Shown here one piece after another: positions 6,630 to 30,908 of a stretch of 64,000 bases of DNA. This DNA comes from an uncultured Schlesneria sp. (GTDB taxonomy: Bacteria; Planctomycetota; Planctomycetia; Planctomycetales; Planctomycetaceae). The notes under the pieces are model-generated. The model did no database searches, was not told the DNA's origin, and saw nothing but the letters and a program-made list of their open reading frames with translations. The position numbers were made by a program, and so were the translations under genes. Location of the stretch: assembly GCA_903840265.1 (NCBI GenBank), contig CAIMFH010000133.1:1-64000 (forward strand), given 5' to 3'. Numbering within the stretch: position 1 is the first letter of the stretch; each line of letters opens with the position of its first letter.

Positions 6630-8243
6630 TTAGATGGGCGATTTTCGCACGAAGACTAACTGTCCATCGCGTTCGAAGTCGACATTCGCTTTTTCAAAGT
6701 CGAGCTTCCACTTGTCGCTCTCTTTCAGCTTCTTGATGAGCGCCTGCCGATGCTGTTGATCGACGACGATCGTGTTGACACCGTAGCGATCAAGAGCCTC
6801 TTCCCAACCGGCCTGGACTTCGCTGATCTGCATGTAAGCCTGCCAGACTTCGCGCGGGACCAGATGAGCGTGGGAGTTCACGAAGATTTTCATTCCCGGC
6901 GGGCCTGCCCACTGCAGGAAATCACCCCATTCATAAGTGTTGAAGATCTGGCCTTGCGGCTTCTTCTCATTCAGATATTTGGCGACGGCTCGAGGCGTGT
7001 CGCTCGTGACAGCCTTTTCGAACTTGGGTATTTTTCCATGAATGATGCGAACACCCAGCGGGCTGTAGGCGAAGCAGATCCAGATCAAACCGACCGTAAC
7101 AACGGTCCACTTGCCCGCTTTGACGGGAGGATTGGAAACAGCAGGCAATCTTCGCCAACTTCGCCACGCGGCATGCCCATGGACTGCCAACAGCAAGGCG
7201 GCAACCGGTGCCCACCAGACGACCATGCGGCTGCTGCAGAGTGTCGACCAGCCCAGGACGACCAGTGACAGCACTTCCCACGAGCGAACACGGCGCGGTG
7301 AACTGCGGTAGACGATGGCCAAGGCAACGGCGACGGCTCCGAAGATCATCCCGGACATTTCTTCGAGGCCGAGAGCGTGCCATTCCACGAGATCCTGCAG
7401 ATTCGGGTTGGAGGCAATCTGCAGCGTCGTCGTGTAGATCCCTATGCCGTAGGGATTCAGGAGTATCGCCACCGCGGCGAGTTCCAACAGCAGGATGTTG
7501 CGTCGCAGGCGTCGATCGTGCAGCAGGGCCTTCCACGATCCGGTCCGGCGCAAGACATCGGCGGCGCGGCCGGTCGCGAAGGCACCCATCAGGAACAATC
7601 CCAGCAGGAACGAACCATGTAGATTCGCCCAGGCGGCGAACAGCATGGGGACCAGCAACCAATCGGTACGATGGAGCTTTCGGCTGGTCATCCGACACAA
7701 CAGCAGCACGAAACAGGCGAGGCCCGCCATTTGAGGCCGAATGATAGAGAGTGGAGACCAGGCGATCGCCAGAAAGCTGACAACGGCGAGCAAGCTGAAC
7801 CAGCCGCTGCGCGTGATCTTCTGACAGCGTACGGCCAACAAGCCGACACAAAGCGAAACGGAGATCGCGTACAGACCCTGCAGCCCGGCGATTCCCAGGT
7901 AGCGCATGGTGACAAAGCCAATCAACTGACTGAGCCACGCCGTATCGACGAAGGGCATCCCTGCGGAGAGCGGCATCAAAGGCTCGGTGGCAGGCAGCGC
8001 CCCGGTGTGCCAGATCTGCCGACCATAGGAGAGGTGTCCCCAGACATCAGTATGCCAGACCGGTCGCAGGCAGAAGAACAAATAGACGAGGCCCACTGTC
8101 AAGACGAGCCCGGCGACGACTCGGGGGGTGCGGGCCCAGACCGGCGTGTGATCTTCCAGTTTCGACAAGTCGGGGCCGGAGCGCTTCGGCTCTTCGGGAG
8201 CTTCGTTCACGGTCATGGGTTCATCAATCACAGCACCGCTCAT
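6630..8243 (-). CDS. Polytopic membrane protein
   Basis: The 537-residue product starts at an ATG preceded by AGGTGA. After a soluble 45-residue N-terminus it shows about nine or ten hydrophobic segments up to residue 400, including VVAGLVLTVGLVYLFFCLRP. A soluble C-terminal domain of about 130 residues follows, with YEWGDFLQWAGPPGMKIFVN and NTIVVDQQHR. An acidic-aromatic first loop (WHTDVWGHLSYG) recalls lipid-linked-sugar glycosyltransferases of the PMT/GT-C type, in which an Asp in the first loop is catalytic. This likeness is by eye only. It is first in a probable operon with the gene at 5295-6572. Confidence 0.75.
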   Translation of the reverse strand: MSGAVIDEPMTVNEAPEEPKRSGPDLSKLEDHTPVWARTPRVVAGLVLTVGLVYLFFCLRPVWHTDVWGHLSYGRQIWHTGALPATEPLMPLSAGMPFVDTAWLSQLIGFVTMRYLGIAGLQGLYAISVSLCVGLLAVRCQKITRSGWFSLLAVVSFLAIAWSPLSIIRPQMAGLACFVLLLCRMTSRKLHRTDWLLVPMLFAAWANLHGSFLLGLFLMGAFATGRAADVLRRTGSWKALLHDRRLRRNILLLELAAVAILLNPYGIGIYTTTLQIASNPNLQDLVEWHALGLEEMSGMIFGAVAVALAIVYRSSPRRVRSWEVLSLVVLGWSTLCSSRMVVWWAPVAALLLAVHGHAAWRSWRRLPAVSNPPVKAGKWTVVTVGLIWICFAYSPLGVRIIHGKIPKFEKAVTSDTPRAVAKYLNEKKPQGQIFNTYEWGDFLQWAGPPGMKIFVNSHAHLVPREVWQAYMQISEVQAGWEEALDRYGVNTIVVDQQHRQALIKKLKESDKWKLDFEKANVDFERDGQLVFVRKSPI

Positions 8244-8823
8244 GGTTCACCTGCTAGTCGGATTCAGGCCAGTGGACAGGAGCAGACATGCTGGGCGAGC
8301 CAAGCGCACCGCCGCCATGTTGCATTCCTTCAACTTTAGATTAGGACCGAGGGTTACCCCTCGTCATCACGAAATCCAAAAACAAGGCGTTGAACCACTG
8401 GCCGGTGAGATTTGTAACGAAATTAACGTTTGAACCGCTTTTTTGGGGCTAAATGAACGCGTGCCAATGTGCTGATGGGAATGGTGATTGGGGTGCCACG
8501 GACTTGGAGTCCCCGACATCGCCGTGTCTTTTAATCGAAGACACGGCCACCCCGAAGACGGTGAGACCGTGGCACCTGATACCAAATCCAAAACAACTAT
8601 CATCGCGCAGGGGCATGTCGAAGATTCTATCGCGCGCGCATCAAGGCGGTTCTCGCGGTTCAGCAAGGAAGTTACGTTTTCAAGACTTACGCGTCCGGTC
8701 TCGAATTCTTCGGAGCCAATAACCAACATTAGGCCACTGCCGACGCGTCGAGTGATTCTGCGACTGTGAACGTGTAGAATCGGCGGGGTCTGTCACACCG
8801 TTCGCTACAAGCTATTGGTTCTC
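8244..8823. other. Intergenic region between divergent genes
   Basis: This 580-base stretch separates the polytopic membrane protein gene (minus) from oleA (plus) and should hold both promoters. No reading frame is convincing. It contains the inverted-repeat element at 8492-8576. No promoter pair could be assigned with confidence. Confidence 0.6.
8492..8576. repeat. GTGCCAC-bounded inverted-repeat element
   Basis: Outer arms GGTGCCACGG (8492-8501) and CCGTGGCACC (8567-8576) enclose a second hairpin, GCCGTGTCTT/AAGACACGGC (8521-8530 and 8538-8547). Parts recur at 21007-21049 and the GTGCCAC/GTGGCAC ends recur at 16782-16942, so it appears to be a dispersed non-coding repeat. Confidence 0.65.
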
Positions 8824-23221: not shown

Positions 23222-24295
23222 CTACTCCCAGTTCAACGTGGAGGCACTCTGGTACTCCGTCACGCGAGTTTCGAAGAAGTTCTTTTCCTTGCTGAGATCA
23301 ATCGTTTCGCTCATCCACGGAAACGGATTCGACGACCCGTATTGCGTTGGCAGGCCGATACGTTCCAATCGTCGATCCGCGATGAATTGCACATAGTCAC
23401 GGAACAGGCTGGCGTTCAAGCCCATGATTCCGCGAGGAAGGCAGTCTTGAGCGTAGTCAATTTCCAACTCGACAGCCTGTCGAACGCGATCGATCATCGA
23501 TTGCTGGAATTCGGGCGTCCAGATGTGCGGATTCTCGGTCTTGATGCCGTTGATCAGGTCGATCCCGAAATTCAGATGGACCGTTTCGTCTCGCAGAATG
23601 TATTGGAACTGCTCGCCAATCCCGGTCATCAGGTTGCGGCGATGGAACGACAGCACCATCACGAAACCGGTGTAAAAGAAGATCCCTTCCATGATCAGGT
23701 AGTAGCCGATCAGGTTCTTCAGAAAGGCTTGGGCCCCTTCAAAGGAATCTGTTTCGAAGTTGGGATCGAGGACTTCGGCGGTCAGTTCCATTTCCAGTTC
23801 GTCCTTGCGAGCGATCGCAGGGACTTCGTGGTACATGTTGAAAATCTCGCCCTCGTTCAGGCCCAGGCTTTCGACCACGTACAAGAAGGTGTGCGAATGC
23901 ACCGCTTCCTCGAAAGCCTGTCGCAACAGGTACTGCCGACATTCGGCATTCGTCACGTGCCGGAAGATCGCCAGGACCAGATTGTTGCCGACCAGACTCT
24001 CGGCCGTCGCGAAGAAGCCCAGGCTACGCATCAGGACTCGGCGCTCGTCATCGGTCAGACGGCTCGAACGCCATGTTTCGATATCCTTGTTCATCGGGAC
24101 TTCGGTCGGCATCCAATGGTTGGCACATCCATTGAGGTAGTGTTCCCAGGCCCACTGATACTTGAGCGGCATCAATTGATTCACGTCGACCTGGTGGCAA
24201 TTGATCAACCGCTTGTCGTGCGCATTGACGCGTTCACGCTCGGGAGGGGGGGACGTTGGAGACTGCTCTGCAGTCGTCGCAATTAGTTCGGTCAT
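23222..24295 (-). CDS. nrdB: Ribonucleotide reductase beta subunit, predicted class Ic
   Basis: The 357-residue protein is a class I radical-generating R2 subunit, which with NrdA makes deoxyribonucleotides. The six metal ligands are visible: Glu99, Glu130, His133, Glu203, Glu237 and His240. Their spacings equal those of E. coli R2 (84, 115, 118, 204, 238, 241). Two positions differ in a telling way: the first ligand is Glu rather than Asp, and the radical tyrosine (E. coli Tyr122) is Phe137 in EEAVHSHTF. Both changes match the Chlamydia class Ic enzyme, which uses a Mn/Fe centre instead of a tyrosyl radical. Cofactor type is therefore inferred as Mn/Fe. An AGAGA lies seven bases before the ATG. 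It follows nrdA by 68 bases, presumably in one operon. Confidence 0.95.
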
Positions 24296-24363: not shown

Positions 24364-27189
24364 TTATTGGCAGGCTTCACACGTCGGATCATCAAGCCGA
24401 CAGGCCGAGGCCACTTCGATGACGGGCATGCCATCGCGGCGGACTTCCACGTCACTGGAGGCACTTCGGTTCTTCATCCACTTGGGTTGAATCCCGAAGC
24501 TGTTGAGATCCACCGTCGATTTTTCGACTTGTGTCGCAGCCAGCGTGCGCAGGTAGTAAGTGGTCTTCAGACCCTTCTGCCACGCCAGGGCGTACATATC
24601 CTGCATCTTGCGGCCACTTGGCTCGGCGAGATACAGGTTCAAGGATTGTCCCTGATCGATCCACTTCTGTCGTCGGGCCGCACATTCGATCAACCACTTC
24701 GGATCGATCTCGAAGGCGGTCAGGAATTGTTGACGCAGTTCGAGCGGGATTCGGCCAATATTCTGGAGCGAGCCGTCGAAGTACTTCAGTTCGCCAAGCA
24801 TCTGCGCGTCCCACAGGCCCCGCGCCTTCAGCTTGCTGACCAGCATGTCGCTGGCTTGAGTGAACTCGCCGGATAGATTGCTTTTAACATAGAGGAACTT
24901 GTACGCGGGCTCGATTGACTGCGACACACCGATGATGGTGGAGATCGTCGCGGTCGGGGCAATTGCCAGGACATTGCTGTTGCGCATGCCGTGCTGCTTG
25001 ACCGCTTCACGTACCGGCGTCCAGTCAAAGGTTTGCGAACGATCGACCGGAACGGGCTCTCCTCGCCCTTCTTCCAGAAGCTGCAGCGTGTCGATTGGCA
25101 GTAACCCACGATCCCATTTCGACCCTGTGTAGGTCGGATACGTGCCGCGGTCTTTCGCCAGTTCCGTCGAGGCGAGGATCGCATAGTATGAAATCGCTTC
25201 CATGCTGCGATCGGCAAATTCGACGGCGGCGTCACTCGCGTAACTGATGTCGAGCGCGTGCAAGGCGTCTTGAAAGCCCATCAGGCCAAGGCCGACCGGA
25301 CGATGTCGCAAGTTGGACGTTTCAGCTTCTGGGGTCGGATAGAAGTTAATGTCGATAACGTTGTCGAGCATCCGCATCGCTGTGCGTACGGTTTGCTCCA
25401 ACAATGCGAGATCGAGCTTTCCGTCGACGATATGCTCCTTGAGATTGATTGATCCCAGATTGCAGACCGCGGTCTCTTCCGGCGAGGTGTTGAGAAGGAT
25501 CTCGGTGCACAGGTTGCTGCTATGCACGACACCGACATGGTCTTGAGGAGACCGGATGTTTGATGGATCTTTGAACGTGATCCACGGATGGCCCGATTCA
25601 AACAGTCGCGTCAGCATCTTGCGCCACAACTCGGGCGCGGAGACTCGCCGGAAGAGCAACATGTCGCCGGCATCGGCCCTCTGTTCATATTCTTCGTACC
25701 GCTCATCGAATTCGCGACCGTAGAGATCGTGAAGATCAGAGACTTCGTCTGGACTAAACAGGGTCCAGGTGCCGTTCTGTCGGACTCGCTTCATGAACAG
25801 GTCGGGGATCCAGTTGGCGGTATGCATATCATGCGTCCGCCGCCGCTCGTCGCCCGTGTTCTTCCGCAGATCGAGGAACTCTTCGATATCGAGATGCCAG
25901 GTCTCCAGATAGGCGCAGACGGCCCCTTTGCGTTTGCCACCTTGATTAACGGCGACGGCGGTGTCGTTGACGACCTTCAGGAACGGGATCACGCCCTGAC
26001 TGCGACCGTTCGTTCCATGAATATGCGCGTTCGTGGCGCGAATATTGGTCCAATCGTTGCCGAGGCCACCGGCCCACTTGGAGAGCCGAGCATTGTCCGA
26101 AATGACCTTGAAAATATGAGTCAAATCGTCGCTGGAGGTGCTCAGGTAGCACGAGCTCAACTGCGGGGTCGGGGTCGCCGAGTTGAACAGCGTGGGGGTC
26201 GCCGACGTGAATCGGAAGCTCGAGAGGACGTCGTAGAATTGGATCGCCCGATCTTCGCGAGCATCCCCTTCTCGCAGCGCCAATCCCATGGCGACGCGCA
26301 TCCAGAAGTACTGCGGAGTCTCGATCCGCTGACCGCCGATGTGCAGCAGATAGCGATCGTGGATGGCCTGCAGCCCCAAGTATTGGAAATGCAGATCGCG
26401 TTCCGGTTTCATCGCGGCGGCAAGACGGGTTAAATCGAACTCACGCAGATCGGGGGTCAATCGAGCCGCACGAATGCCGTCGATGACATAGTGCTCAAAC
26501 TGATCGCGATGCACGTTTTCCAGTGTTTTCGTGTTGGGTGTGTCCCCGAACACTTCTTGATAGATCACATTCAGCATCAGACGGGATGCGACCAGATCGA
26601 ACGCGGGATCACGCTCGATCCGCGATCGAGCCACCAGGATTTGAACGCGATAGATCTCGGCAATGGCGATGCCGTCAAAGACCGAGCGGATCACTTCGTC
26701 GACCATTTCATCGATGTCGACTGTGTTCTCGAGGCCGACGCAGGCTTCGGCCAGACGCTTGCGAACACGGCGCGCTTCGAAGGGGACGCGACTGCCGTCG
26801 GGCAGTGTGACGTAGATTTGCGGAACAGAAGAGGCGACGGTCGCTTCACCGCGAATCACGCGCATCTTGGCATGTTCAGCGCGATAGATGATGTAGCAAC
26901 GAGCGACACGATAGTGCCCACGTGACATCAACCCCAACTCGACCAGGTCTTGGATTCGCTCGACGTCCACTCCTTCGGATTGACTGGCGAGCGGCGCGAT
27001 GTCATCAACGACAGATTGAACGACGCTGGCTACGTCTTTCATGACATCCGATTCGAGCGGCTGACCATCCGCCAGATTCAGCTCGGCGCGAAAGGCGTTC
27101 AAGATTGCCGTGTGGATGCGGGTCAATTCAAAAGAGACACTGCGGCCGTCACGTTTGCGGACAACCCACTCGTGGGGAGCTCGTAGCAT
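24364..27189 (-). CDS. nrdA: Ribonucleoside-diphosphate reductase alpha subunit
   Basis: The start at 27189 ([10 protein letters not shown]) follows AGAGAGG and trims an unlikely 48-residue extension, leaving 941 residues. The N-terminus carries an ATP-cone (about 7-108, [11 protein letters not shown]) and what looks like a second one (about 123-215, [16 protein letters not shown]), which explains the extra length over E. coli NrdA. Catalytic cysteines are in SSCYLS, NLCTEI and VCNLGS. The radical-path tyrosine pair is in TYYLR, and C-terminal thiols are in [12 protein letters not shown]. It reduces ribonucleotides with the radical supplied by NrdB. Expression is probably B12-controlled through the upstream riboswitch. 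Confidence 0.95.
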
Positions 27190-27198
27190 AAGACTGGA

Positions 27199-27227
27199 CC
27201 TCTCTCCGTATCGCACCGATACGAGAA
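27199..27227 (-). promoter_or_regulatory. Hairpin at the nrdA ribosome-binding site
   Basis: CGTATCG (27207-27213) and CGATACG (27217-27223) form a 7-bp stem with a 3-base loop immediately 5' of the nrdA ribosome-binding site (complement of 27199-27205). Three more pairs past a bulge reach into that site. It could link the riboswitch to translation control, but it may also be constitutive. Confidence 0.45.
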
Positions 27228-27302
27228 TGCGGACGCACCGAATCTTGTTCGAGAACGACCGATCGAGGAGTGATCGCAGTCGCGGAAGAAAACGAATATC
27301 GC

Positions 27303-27328
27303 AGGCCCGCCAGCCAATGCTTGGCGGT
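27303..27328 (-). promoter_or_regulatory. Possible expression-platform hairpin
   Basis: Between the B12 riboswitch and nrdA the minus strand can form a stem CCGCCA/TGGCGG around an AGCATTGGC loop. It is followed by a T-containing but broken tract (TTCGTTTTCTT near 27289). It could be a weak intrinsic terminator used by the riboswitch; this is inference. Confidence 0.3.
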
Positions 27329-27461
27329 CCCAATCAGCGCACTCGTCCGCGCAGCAGAATACATCCATCCCCCGACCGCCCTTTCCCGAGAAGGTTCGGC
27401 AGACAAACAGCTCAGCCCGATGGCATCCGGCCATCGCAATCCTGTGAATCTGAACTGTTCA

Positions 27462-27661
27462 ATCGCTGGCAGGTCTTCGGACTCGCGAACACTCGGCCCA
27501 CCCGTAAAAGTGGACCAATTCCTACTAGCCATCGCTTCCCAATTCTTGCGAATCAGTGCTCTGTGATGGCGGTCGTTTTCGCTTACCGCTGCGGGGCAGT
27601 CCCGGATTTACACCGGATTCCCTCTTATCGTGACCACGACATCTTGTGGTCAACCAGCAAC
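27462..27661 (-). promoter_or_regulatory. Cobalamin (B12) riboswitch aptamer upstream of nrdAB
   Basis: Read on the minus strand this has the defining parts of an AdoCbl-type riboswitch. GGGAATCCGGTGTAAATCC is followed by GGGACTGCCCCGCAGCGGTA (27581-27626) and, at the 3' end, by the B12 box GAGTCCGAAGACCTGCC (27468-27484). An 8-bp closing stem pairs 27654-27661 with 27462-27469, and a hairpin at 27631-27652 (TGACCAC/GTGGTCA) lies inside it. It starts within ten bases of a good promoter and ends 272 bases before the nrdA start. B12 binding would be expected to lower expression of this B12-independent reductase. Confidence 0.93.
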
Positions 27662-27668
27662 GGGACGC

Positions 27669-27696
27669 ACTATATCTTGCTGGCGGCTGGTGTCAA
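27669..27696 (-). promoter_or_regulatory. Sigma-70-like promoter for nrdAB
   Basis: On the minus strand a perfect -35 box TTGACA (27691-27696) and a -10 box TATAGT (27669-27674) are 16 bases apart. The predicted transcript start, near 27660, coincides with the 5' closing stem of the cobalamin riboswitch, which supports both calls. Confidence 0.75.
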
Positions 27697-28015
27697 TTCA
27701 GGAAAATCGGAATCGTGGGGAGACGCTCAAGAGATCCGAAAAGCACCGATGGACCGCGCGTAACTGGAGCTGCATCAGGAAGTTGGAGCGTCCAATCCTG
27801 CTCGTTTGTCGATGTTGATGTGTCGCGCATTCGAGTGGGATTTCTGTAATACTCTGGCTTCGGATCGTGTTTCGAAAAGGCGTCGAACGTTGATCGCCAG
27901 CTACTTGAAGCCGAGACGAAAACACCTCTGTTCTTGCTGGTTGGTGAGCACCGCGCACGGCATTTGTGATGTGCCCTCAGTCTGTGTTCTCGCGTTTGTG
28001 TTGAAGGTTTTTGGT

Positions 28016-29424: not shown

Positions 29425-29498
29425 TGTCCCCGGCTGGAGTCGAACCAGCAACCTTCGGCTTCGGAGGCCAACGCTCTATCCAATTGAGCTACGGAGAC
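29425..29498 (-). tRNA. tRNA-Arg (anticodon CCG)
   Basis: On the minus strand the sequence folds into a full cloverleaf. The acceptor stem is GTCTCCG/CGGGGAC, the D arm is GCTCAATTGGATAGAGC, and the anticodon stem-loop TTGGC-CTCCGAA-GCCGA has anticodon CCG. The T arm is GCTGG-TTCGACT-CCAGC. The discriminator base is A, and CCA is not encoded. The tRNA reads CGG arginine codons. Confidence 0.96.
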
Positions 29499-29636: not shown

Positions 29637-30908
29637 CTAAAGAGCCGCTTGGATTGCTCGCAGGACATCACCGTCGCTCGGTAGGTTGGTATCGATTAAC
29701 GGGCGAAGGCGAATGGGGATTTCGTCCATGCGGTAGGCTGTTCCCGGAATGTGAATTCCATAGGTTGCCGTCGTGAAGAGAACCGTCGGCTGCAGGGGAA
29801 TCTTTGAATTGATTCCGTCCAGAACAATGGTCGGAATGCTCCGCAGATGGTCTTGAGCGGCCGGCGAGAACGAGTCGACTCGCGCCGTACCCACCAAGAC
29901 CAATGCGTCGGCTTCTTTATTCTCCAGAACATCGCCCGCTGAATACTCGTCAGGGTTATAGCGCGGATATCCACGGGCCAGGTTGACGCTGAACGGATAG
30001 CCGGTTTGCCAGCAGAGGACGCTGTCGGCTCCCGACACATCGCCCACATTGCGTAACCGACGAGCGTGGAATCGGGTGAACTGATTCAGATCGATCACCA
30101 ACCGCAACAGGGCTTCCACATTGCGATGTCCCATCGGATGCTGAGCCACTCCGTATCCGAAGAAGATGACGCCGCAACGACACTGCTTCATCATCTGCGC
30201 GAGTCGCTTCAATTCTTTAAGTGGCGCACCGACCGCCTGCCCGGGATTAGGCTCGACTCCCTTTAACAGAGCCCTCAACGTCCAGAGAACGTCAAAGTCG
30301 CTGCCAGGATCAATCTTTAGAAACCAATCGGCCCCTTCGGCCGTTTTGCTGGGGGCAGAGTCGACGACCACCAGTGTTCGGTCCGCGCGACCATTGGGCG
30401 TCAACATTCCCGGCGCATCCATCGAGTATCGCTCCATATGACGTGGATGCGACTTGACGGGGTCAGCTCCCCAATAGATGACAAGGTCGGCGCGATTCCT
30501 GATTTCACCGAGCGAGCAGGTTGATTCACCCACTTGTTGAAGTGCGAGAATCGACGGGGCGTGTCCTTCTGACGCGGTGGTGTCGATCGTGGCACCAAGC
30601 TTGTCCGCGAGTGCGACGGCGGCTCGTTGGCCTTCCGTGCTGCTCTTCGACAAACCAAAAATGAGCGGGGCTCGGGCATCACGCAAGATTGCAGCGGCTG
30701 CCTGGATCCCCTGCTGGAAAGTCGCTTCATGGCCTCGAAGTTGAACCGACGGGGCCGTCGATGTCCAAGGACTCAGATACCACGGTTCGGCGAGGCAACA
30801 GGCGTGTTCTGCGGCAGTGATCACGCCGTCCCGGACCGTCACTTTGAGATCGTCACAGATGCAGGCGCAAACTGTGCAGGCGACATTTTCGATCGTTCTT
30901 TCGGACAT
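29637..30908 (-). CDS. fhcB: Formylmethanofuran dehydrogenase subunit B homologue
   Basis: The 423-residue protein belongs to the molybdopterin-oxidoreductase-like B subunit of formylmethanofuran dehydrogenase. In methylotrophs and planctomycetes it is part of the formyltransferase/hydrolase complex of the H4MPT-linked formaldehyde oxidation route. The N-terminal cysteines Cys11, Cys14 and Cys18 (CTVCACICDD) match the iron-sulfur motif of the archaeal enzyme. Further family blocks are YWGADPVKSHPRHMERYS, FFGYGVAQHPMGHRNVEALL and YPRYNPDEYSAGD. In the methylotroph complex this subunit is reported to have lost redox function, so activity should not be assumed. The other fhc genes are not nearby. 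It starts six bases after the dus stop codon, so the two form an operon. Confidence 0.9.
   Translation of the reverse strand: MSERTIENVACTVCACICDDLKVTVRDGVITAAEHACCLAEPWYLSPWTSTAPSVQLRGHEATFQQGIQAAAAILRDARAPLIFGLSKSSTEGQRAAVALADKLGATIDTTASEGHAPSILALQQVGESTCSLGEIRNRADLVIYWGADPVKSHPRHMERYSMDAPGMLTPNGRADRTLVVVDSAPSKTAEGADWFLKIDPGSDFDVLWTLRALLKGVEPNPGQAVGAPLKELKRLAQMMKQCRCGVIFFGYGVAQHPMGHRNVEALLRLVIDLNQFTRFHARRLRNVGDVSGADSVLCWQTGYPFSVNLARGYPRYNPDEYSAGDVLENKEADALVLVGTARVDSFSPAAQDHLRSIPTIVLDGINSKIPLQPTVLFTTATYGIHIPGTAYRMDEIPIRLRPLIDTNLPSDGDVLRAIQAAL

Follow-up and report, generated by a model that had tools for sequence, protein, structure and literature searches.

A B12-sensing RNA switch before nrdA, first suggested by inspection of the sequence, was confirmed in the 64,000-nucleotide stretch of DNA analysed here (the window). 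Very probably the operon nrdAB is controlled by this riboswitch, which is predicted to bind B12, to turn the operon off when B12 is bound and to act most likely at translation initiation, with NrdJ serving as the B12-dependent alternative reductase.

A scan of the window against all Rfam families located the cobalamin riboswitch RF00174 on the minus strand at 27673-27451 (111.1 bits, E 5.5e-27). The alignment was complete, extending over model positions 1-189 of 189 with a gathering score of 31.5, and this match and one tRNA were the sole Rfam matches in the entire 64 kb. The covariance check proposed in the first-pass annotation for the minus strand thus returned a significant match, and the aptamer that it had described, with core and B12 box, proved to be full-length. 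The associated features are as follows.

27669 to 27696, minus strand: sigma-70-type promoter TTGACA-N16-TATAGT (11 of 12 consensus matches; same offset in aligned relatives).
27451 to 27673, minus strand: cobalamin (AdoCbl-type) riboswitch aptamer, RF00174 (full-length covariance match).

The promoter, which had likewise been noted beforehand, consists of TTGACA at 27696-27691 and TATAGT at 27674-27669 with 16 nt between them, and no other promoter-like site was seen within the 1 kb around it (one found, 0.3 expected in shuffles). Alignment of ten leaders showed a TTGAC-N16/17-TATNTT pair at an unchanged offset to the aptamer, the exception being genome G096 with TAGAC and TATGTT. The -10 box reaches into the 5' flank of the RF00174 match, and transcription is therefore expected to start near P1.

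The genes downstream were characterised from domain content and alignment.

24364 to 27189, minus strand: nrdA, ribonucleotide reductase (RNR) large subunit of 941 aa with ATP-cones, PF00317 and PF02867 (start codon conserved).
23222 to 24295, minus strand: nrdB, encoding a 357-aa class Ic RNR small subunit (Chlamydia R2 alignment).

Phe127 and Glu89 are class Ic marks in the Chlamydia R2 protein. NrdA combines ATP-cones with a class I barrel, while NrdB is nearest by far to the class Ic R2 chains of Chlamydia trachomatis (PDB 1syy and 4d8f, E ~3e-180), to which it aligns end to end: Phe137 of NrdB corresponds to Phe127, replacing the radical tyrosine, and all six metal ligands are matched, E99, E130, H133, E203, E237 and H240 corresponding to E89, E120, H123, E193, E227 and H230. 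The original assignment to class Ia does not survive this comparison, because a phenylalanine at the radical site in company with Chlamydia-type ligands denotes class Ic; judged by these residues, the product of nrdAB is an oxygen-dependent, B12-independent class Ic reductase with a predicted Mn/Fe centre.

A search with PF02867 recovered exactly two RNR large subunits from the 7.49 Mb assembly. The second, encoded at G000:C190:135648-138653 (minus strand), is a 1002 aa NrdJ that matched the NCBIfam model for vitamin B12-dependent RNR, PRK06556, with 1403 bits, far above the cut-off; it carries PF08471, the N-terminal domain of class II enzymes, together with a TSCPD domain, and its nearest PDB entry is a B12-dependent RNR. 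The class II nrdJ that had been predicted to lie elsewhere in the genome is therefore present. Class III NRDD was found in none of ten genomes (that of the window and its relatives). CbiC, a marker of de novo corrinoid synthesis, was missing from all 15 genus genomes (0/15) in a search that worked in seven control genomes; as one marker family standing in for a full pathway, this suggests uptake, and corrinoids are probably imported, B12 being scavenged rather than synthesised.

As a B12-requiring NrdJ is also encoded in the genome, the switch most likely shuts down the spare enzyme when B12 is available. Transcription from the sigma-70-type promoter would yield an mRNA with an adenosylcobalamin aptamer at its 5' end, followed by a structured platform of ~260 nt and by nrdA-nrdB. 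With B12 present, the aptamer would bind it and the platform would cut NrdA production, likeliest at translation initiation, such that the cell would come to depend on the class II, B12-dependent NrdJ; when scavenged B12 is scarce, NrdAB would be produced and DNA synthesis could go on. That a different corrinoid is sensed, or that nrdAB is instead switched on by B12, is scarcely credible: cobalamin riboswitches can answer to several corrinoids (PMC9600662), but activation by B12 is at odds with the independence of NrdAB from B12, the dependence of NrdJ on it, and published cases in which it is the B12-independent isozyme that is repressed.

The distribution of the switch was then compared with that of the two enzymes. 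In a FastTree phylogeny of 64 NrdA sequences, the riboswitch-bearing relatives of the window's NrdA grouped into a single ten-member clade with 99 percent local support; the riboswitch label changed about five times over the tree, with three independent pairs, too few for significance. RF00174, NrdA and NrdJ were searched separately in a family sample of 150 genomes, 53 of which encode a true NrdA. NrdA and NrdJ occur together in seven (G000, the genome of the window, and G048, G070, G068, G094, G096 and G130); a cobalamin riboswitch lies 5' of nrdA on the same strand in 7/7, ending 236-333 nt upstream, although, given so few independent events, these largely represent one lineage. By way of contrast, RF00174 was beside nrdA in 0/42 checkable NrdA-only genomes, four of the 46 having been left out with nrdA cut at a contig end. 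Beyond the family, where named genomes were scanned and the loci then subjected to covariance searches, NrdJ was present in 12 of 14 genomes with a riboswitch before nrdA versus 4 of 36 riboswitch-free ones, G068 being counted here as well as in the family sample. For the same phylogenetic reason, the Fisher values of 1.2e-8 (family, ignoring kinship) and 1.1e-6 (beyond it) overstate the evidence. In two of the 12 (L075 and L113) the NrdJ match is fragmentary or split, and was counted as NrdJ because it reaches the model end, unlike NrdA matches. Four genomes with NrdJ and a class I nrdA constitute counter-cases in which the riboswitch is absent.

Records of Rubripirellula, Aporhodopirellula aestuarii, a Rubrobacter-like organism, Chloroflexia, Verrucomicrobia and Parachlamydiales also contain nrdA-linked cobalamin riboswitches. 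Covariance searches were adopted for the loci because a regular-expression scan had missed the true positives L088 and L089. In two Parachlamydiales MAGs (L140 and L144), which account for both NrdJ-less genomes among the 14, a riboswitch lies 5' of nrdA, and there was no NrdJ_Z match above the cut-off except NrdA; either NrdJ is missing from incomplete bins or the riboswitch there follows another logic.

Within a genus sample of 12, NrdJ was encoded in 12/12 and NrdA only in G000, G096 and G130; the leader and nrdA are also present in G582, a near relative of G000. Such a pattern fits an accessory nrdAB operon having joined an NrdJ-dependent background, presumably by transfer. A search of sister genomes for an empty nrdAB site, guided by the adjoining genes for an SDF symporter and fmdB, yielded no clean one, these neighbours themselves being variable. 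The single clade and the patchy occurrence, in few of the 15 genus genomes, would also suit a riboswitch that merely came along with transferred nrdAB and now controls nothing important. This is, however, very unlikely: the aptamer core, promoter and platform have been kept although the NrdA proteins are only 71-79 percent identical, and the platform helices covary, which together argue for selection for function.

In the ten aligned leaders, the region between aptamer and start codon (~260 nt in the window) follows a common order: after promoter and aptamer come a long hairpin, CCTTCNNGGGAAAGG (invariant except at two positions), a variable stretch, a strand designated B, in most cases a Shine-Dalgarno hairpin, and the ATG. 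The features of this platform in the window are as follows.

27406 to 27460, minus strand: long hairpin directly 3' of the aptamer, where other cobalamin riboswitches have P13 (covariation, 10 relatives).
27395 to 27401, minus strand: strand A (TGCCGAA), one half of a long-range helix (permutation test).
27380 to 27394, minus strand: near-invariant element CCTTCTCGGGAAAGG, which contains a short hairpin CCUU/AAGG; GCGGTCGGGGGATG comes next (leader alignment and model R1).
27236 to 27242, minus strand: strand B (TTCGGTG), which pairs with strand A (permutation test).
27207 to 27223, minus strand: hairpin CGTATCG-GTG-CGATACG beside the ribosome-binding site (sequence, covariation).
27199 to 27206, minus strand: Shine-Dalgarno-like GAGAGAGG, 9 nt 5' of the ATG at 27189 (aligns with AGGAG in relatives).

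Neither the hairpin after the aptamer (27460-27406) nor the element at 27394-27380 figured in the first-pass annotation. The inner stem of the former, CGATGGC/GCCATCG, pairs 27436-27430 with 27424-27418, and RNAalifold identified many compensatory pairs in the hairpin among 10 relatives. While a covarying hairpin does therefore occupy the place of L13, no covarying pairing of an L5-L13 kissing loop was recognised by eye in the leader alignment.

The element containing CCUUCNNGGGAAAGG, downstream of the aptamer, is near-invariant among the relatives. Model R1, run on the family, showed it to be confined to these leaders, bar weak matches (29-31 bits) in three genomes of one genus (g56), of which the one inspected (L164) has the appearance of coding sequence and was disregarded; across a phylum-wide sample of 392 genomes the model gave two matches, both previously known. 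Apart from a second copy in G096, the element was found in this form in none of the scanned riboswitch-free nrdA leaders or DUF1559-linked riboswitches, and more divergent forms lie 3' of the aptamer in L115, L140 and L144.

Strand A, the 8 nt preceding CCTTC, has its partner, strand B, ~50 nt 5' of the ATG. Mean energies of the resultant helix were -10.2 kcal/mol for own pairings, -8.4 for swapped pairings and -7.4 for shuffled regions, and only 3 of 20000 permutations equalled the own pairs, a figure to which kinship among the sequences may contribute. A second candidate, pairing GGUCGAGG with downstream CCUCGA-like stretches, was attractive by eye and by RNAalifold, yet own pairs did no better than swapped ones (5523/20000) and it was set aside. 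An upstream ORF, starting at an ATG 3' of the conserved element and in some frames open into nrdA, was rejected as a leader peptide, because the differences between G000 and G582 are mostly amino-acid changing in both frames and no conserved peptide was seen by eye.

The hairpin said to lie against the ribosome-binding site of nrdA fared less uniformly. Its existence is supported by the same placement in most relatives and by covarying pairs, although on energy alone the region folded no more strongly than shuffles (z -0.53); GAGAGAGG abuts its 3' end. By way of contrast, a switching role drew no support from fold predictions on ten relatives, in which accessibility of the Shine-Dalgarno sequence did not differ consistently between closed and open aptamer. 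These flat accessibilities, together with the ~260 nt from aptamer to start codon, a distance greater than a compact translational platform would require, and the reportedly transcriptional action of the Streptomyces coelicolor nrdABS riboswitch (Borovok 2006, as cited by PMC4991794), lend some weight to a rather unlikely alternative, in which binding of B12 would terminate transcription prematurely within the long leader, by Rho or in an atypical way, and the hairpin would be only a spacer or stability element. Against it, no site resembling an intrinsic terminator was detected in 27000-28000, and the conserved elements reach as far as the Shine-Dalgarno sequence. Given a leader devoid of an intrinsic terminator, translation initiation is favoured, and control is likely to be exerted at the level of translation.

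The principle of such control is already known. Repression of the class Ia operon nrdABS of S. coelicolor by a B12 riboswitch has been reported (Borovok et al. 2006, as cited by PMC4991794); as here, a cobalamin riboswitch precedes class I nrdAB and NrdJ is encoded in the same genome, but that system comprises a class Ia enzyme plus nrdS in an actinobacterium, whereas in the window nrdAB is of class Ic and the host is planctomycete-like. In the delta-proteobacteria Desulfovibrio vulgaris and Desulfuromonas, B12 elements precede nrdDG, NrdJ lies elsewhere and repression has been proposed (PMC545781); the logic is equal, with a B12-independent RNR behind a B12 element, but the enzyme is class III NrdDG rather than class Ic. 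Similarly, metE with a cobalamin riboswitch and metH elsewhere (PMC9600662) places a B12-independent isozyme under a B12 riboswitch, the enzyme in this instance being methionine synthase rather than RNR. A literature search, conducted mostly outside subscription journals and on accessible parts of the sources, returned no report of a class Ic RNR with a riboswitch, nor of a planctomycete cobalamin riboswitch with an RNR; as far as could be checked, the enzyme subclass, host group and platform are new. The rule that genomes with a B12-dependent RNR keep their B12-independent one under a B12 riboswitch is thereby extended to class Ic and to planctomycetes.

Because most of the sampled genus genomes have NrdJ without NrdA, and all are without CbiC, these organisms are predicted to need imported B12 for DNA, a need from which the nrdAB operon would release the window's species in DNA synthesis. 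It may tentatively be proposed that the riboswitch, the conserved platform (covarying hairpin, CCUUCNNGGGAAAGG and A-B helix, previously undescribed) and class Ic nrdAB constitute a transferable cassette that would free B12-scavenging, NrdJ-dependent planctomycetes from the need for B12 in DNA synthesis.

A second cobalamin riboswitch, the only other one in the genome of the window (L001:1501-1698, minus strand; G000:C91:3392-3589), lies upstream of a pseudopilin-like DUF1559 (SBP_bac_10) gene. Most family cobalamin riboswitches precede DUF1559, at 19/19 loci in a first set and at 16/21 further places (L007-L032; L201-L220), which suggests that the DUF1559 protein may be involved in B12 uptake; the literature search found no paper joining DUF1559 and cobalamin. 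Farther 3' at some of these loci are a small lipoprotein-like ORF, a Diphthami_syn_2 protein and DUF6580. Pilin-free riboswitches precede DUF6580, with Peripla_BP_2 or CobS genes beyond, or genes for DUF4465, a published B12-binding domain (PMC13398666). The second riboswitch of G096 (L069:3715-4017, minus strand), directly 3' of nrdB and 5' of a DUF1559 gene, has the same nrd-type platform, in which the CCTTCTAGGGAAAGG element is present and a hairpin precedes the ribosome-binding site. In G048 (L068), cobalamin riboswitches stand back to back (7437-7625, minus; 8059-8296, plus), one before nrdA and the divergent one before DUF1559 followed by putative HlyD-like and CzcA-like efflux genes, as read from sequence; a divergent riboswitch pair also occurs in G060 (L216).

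Elsewhere in the window, a C1-pathway gene for formylmethanofuran dehydrogenase subunit B (29637-30908, minus strand; TIGR03129, 433 bits) adjoins the tRNA at 29425-29498, and relatives were found in 15/15 genus genomes.
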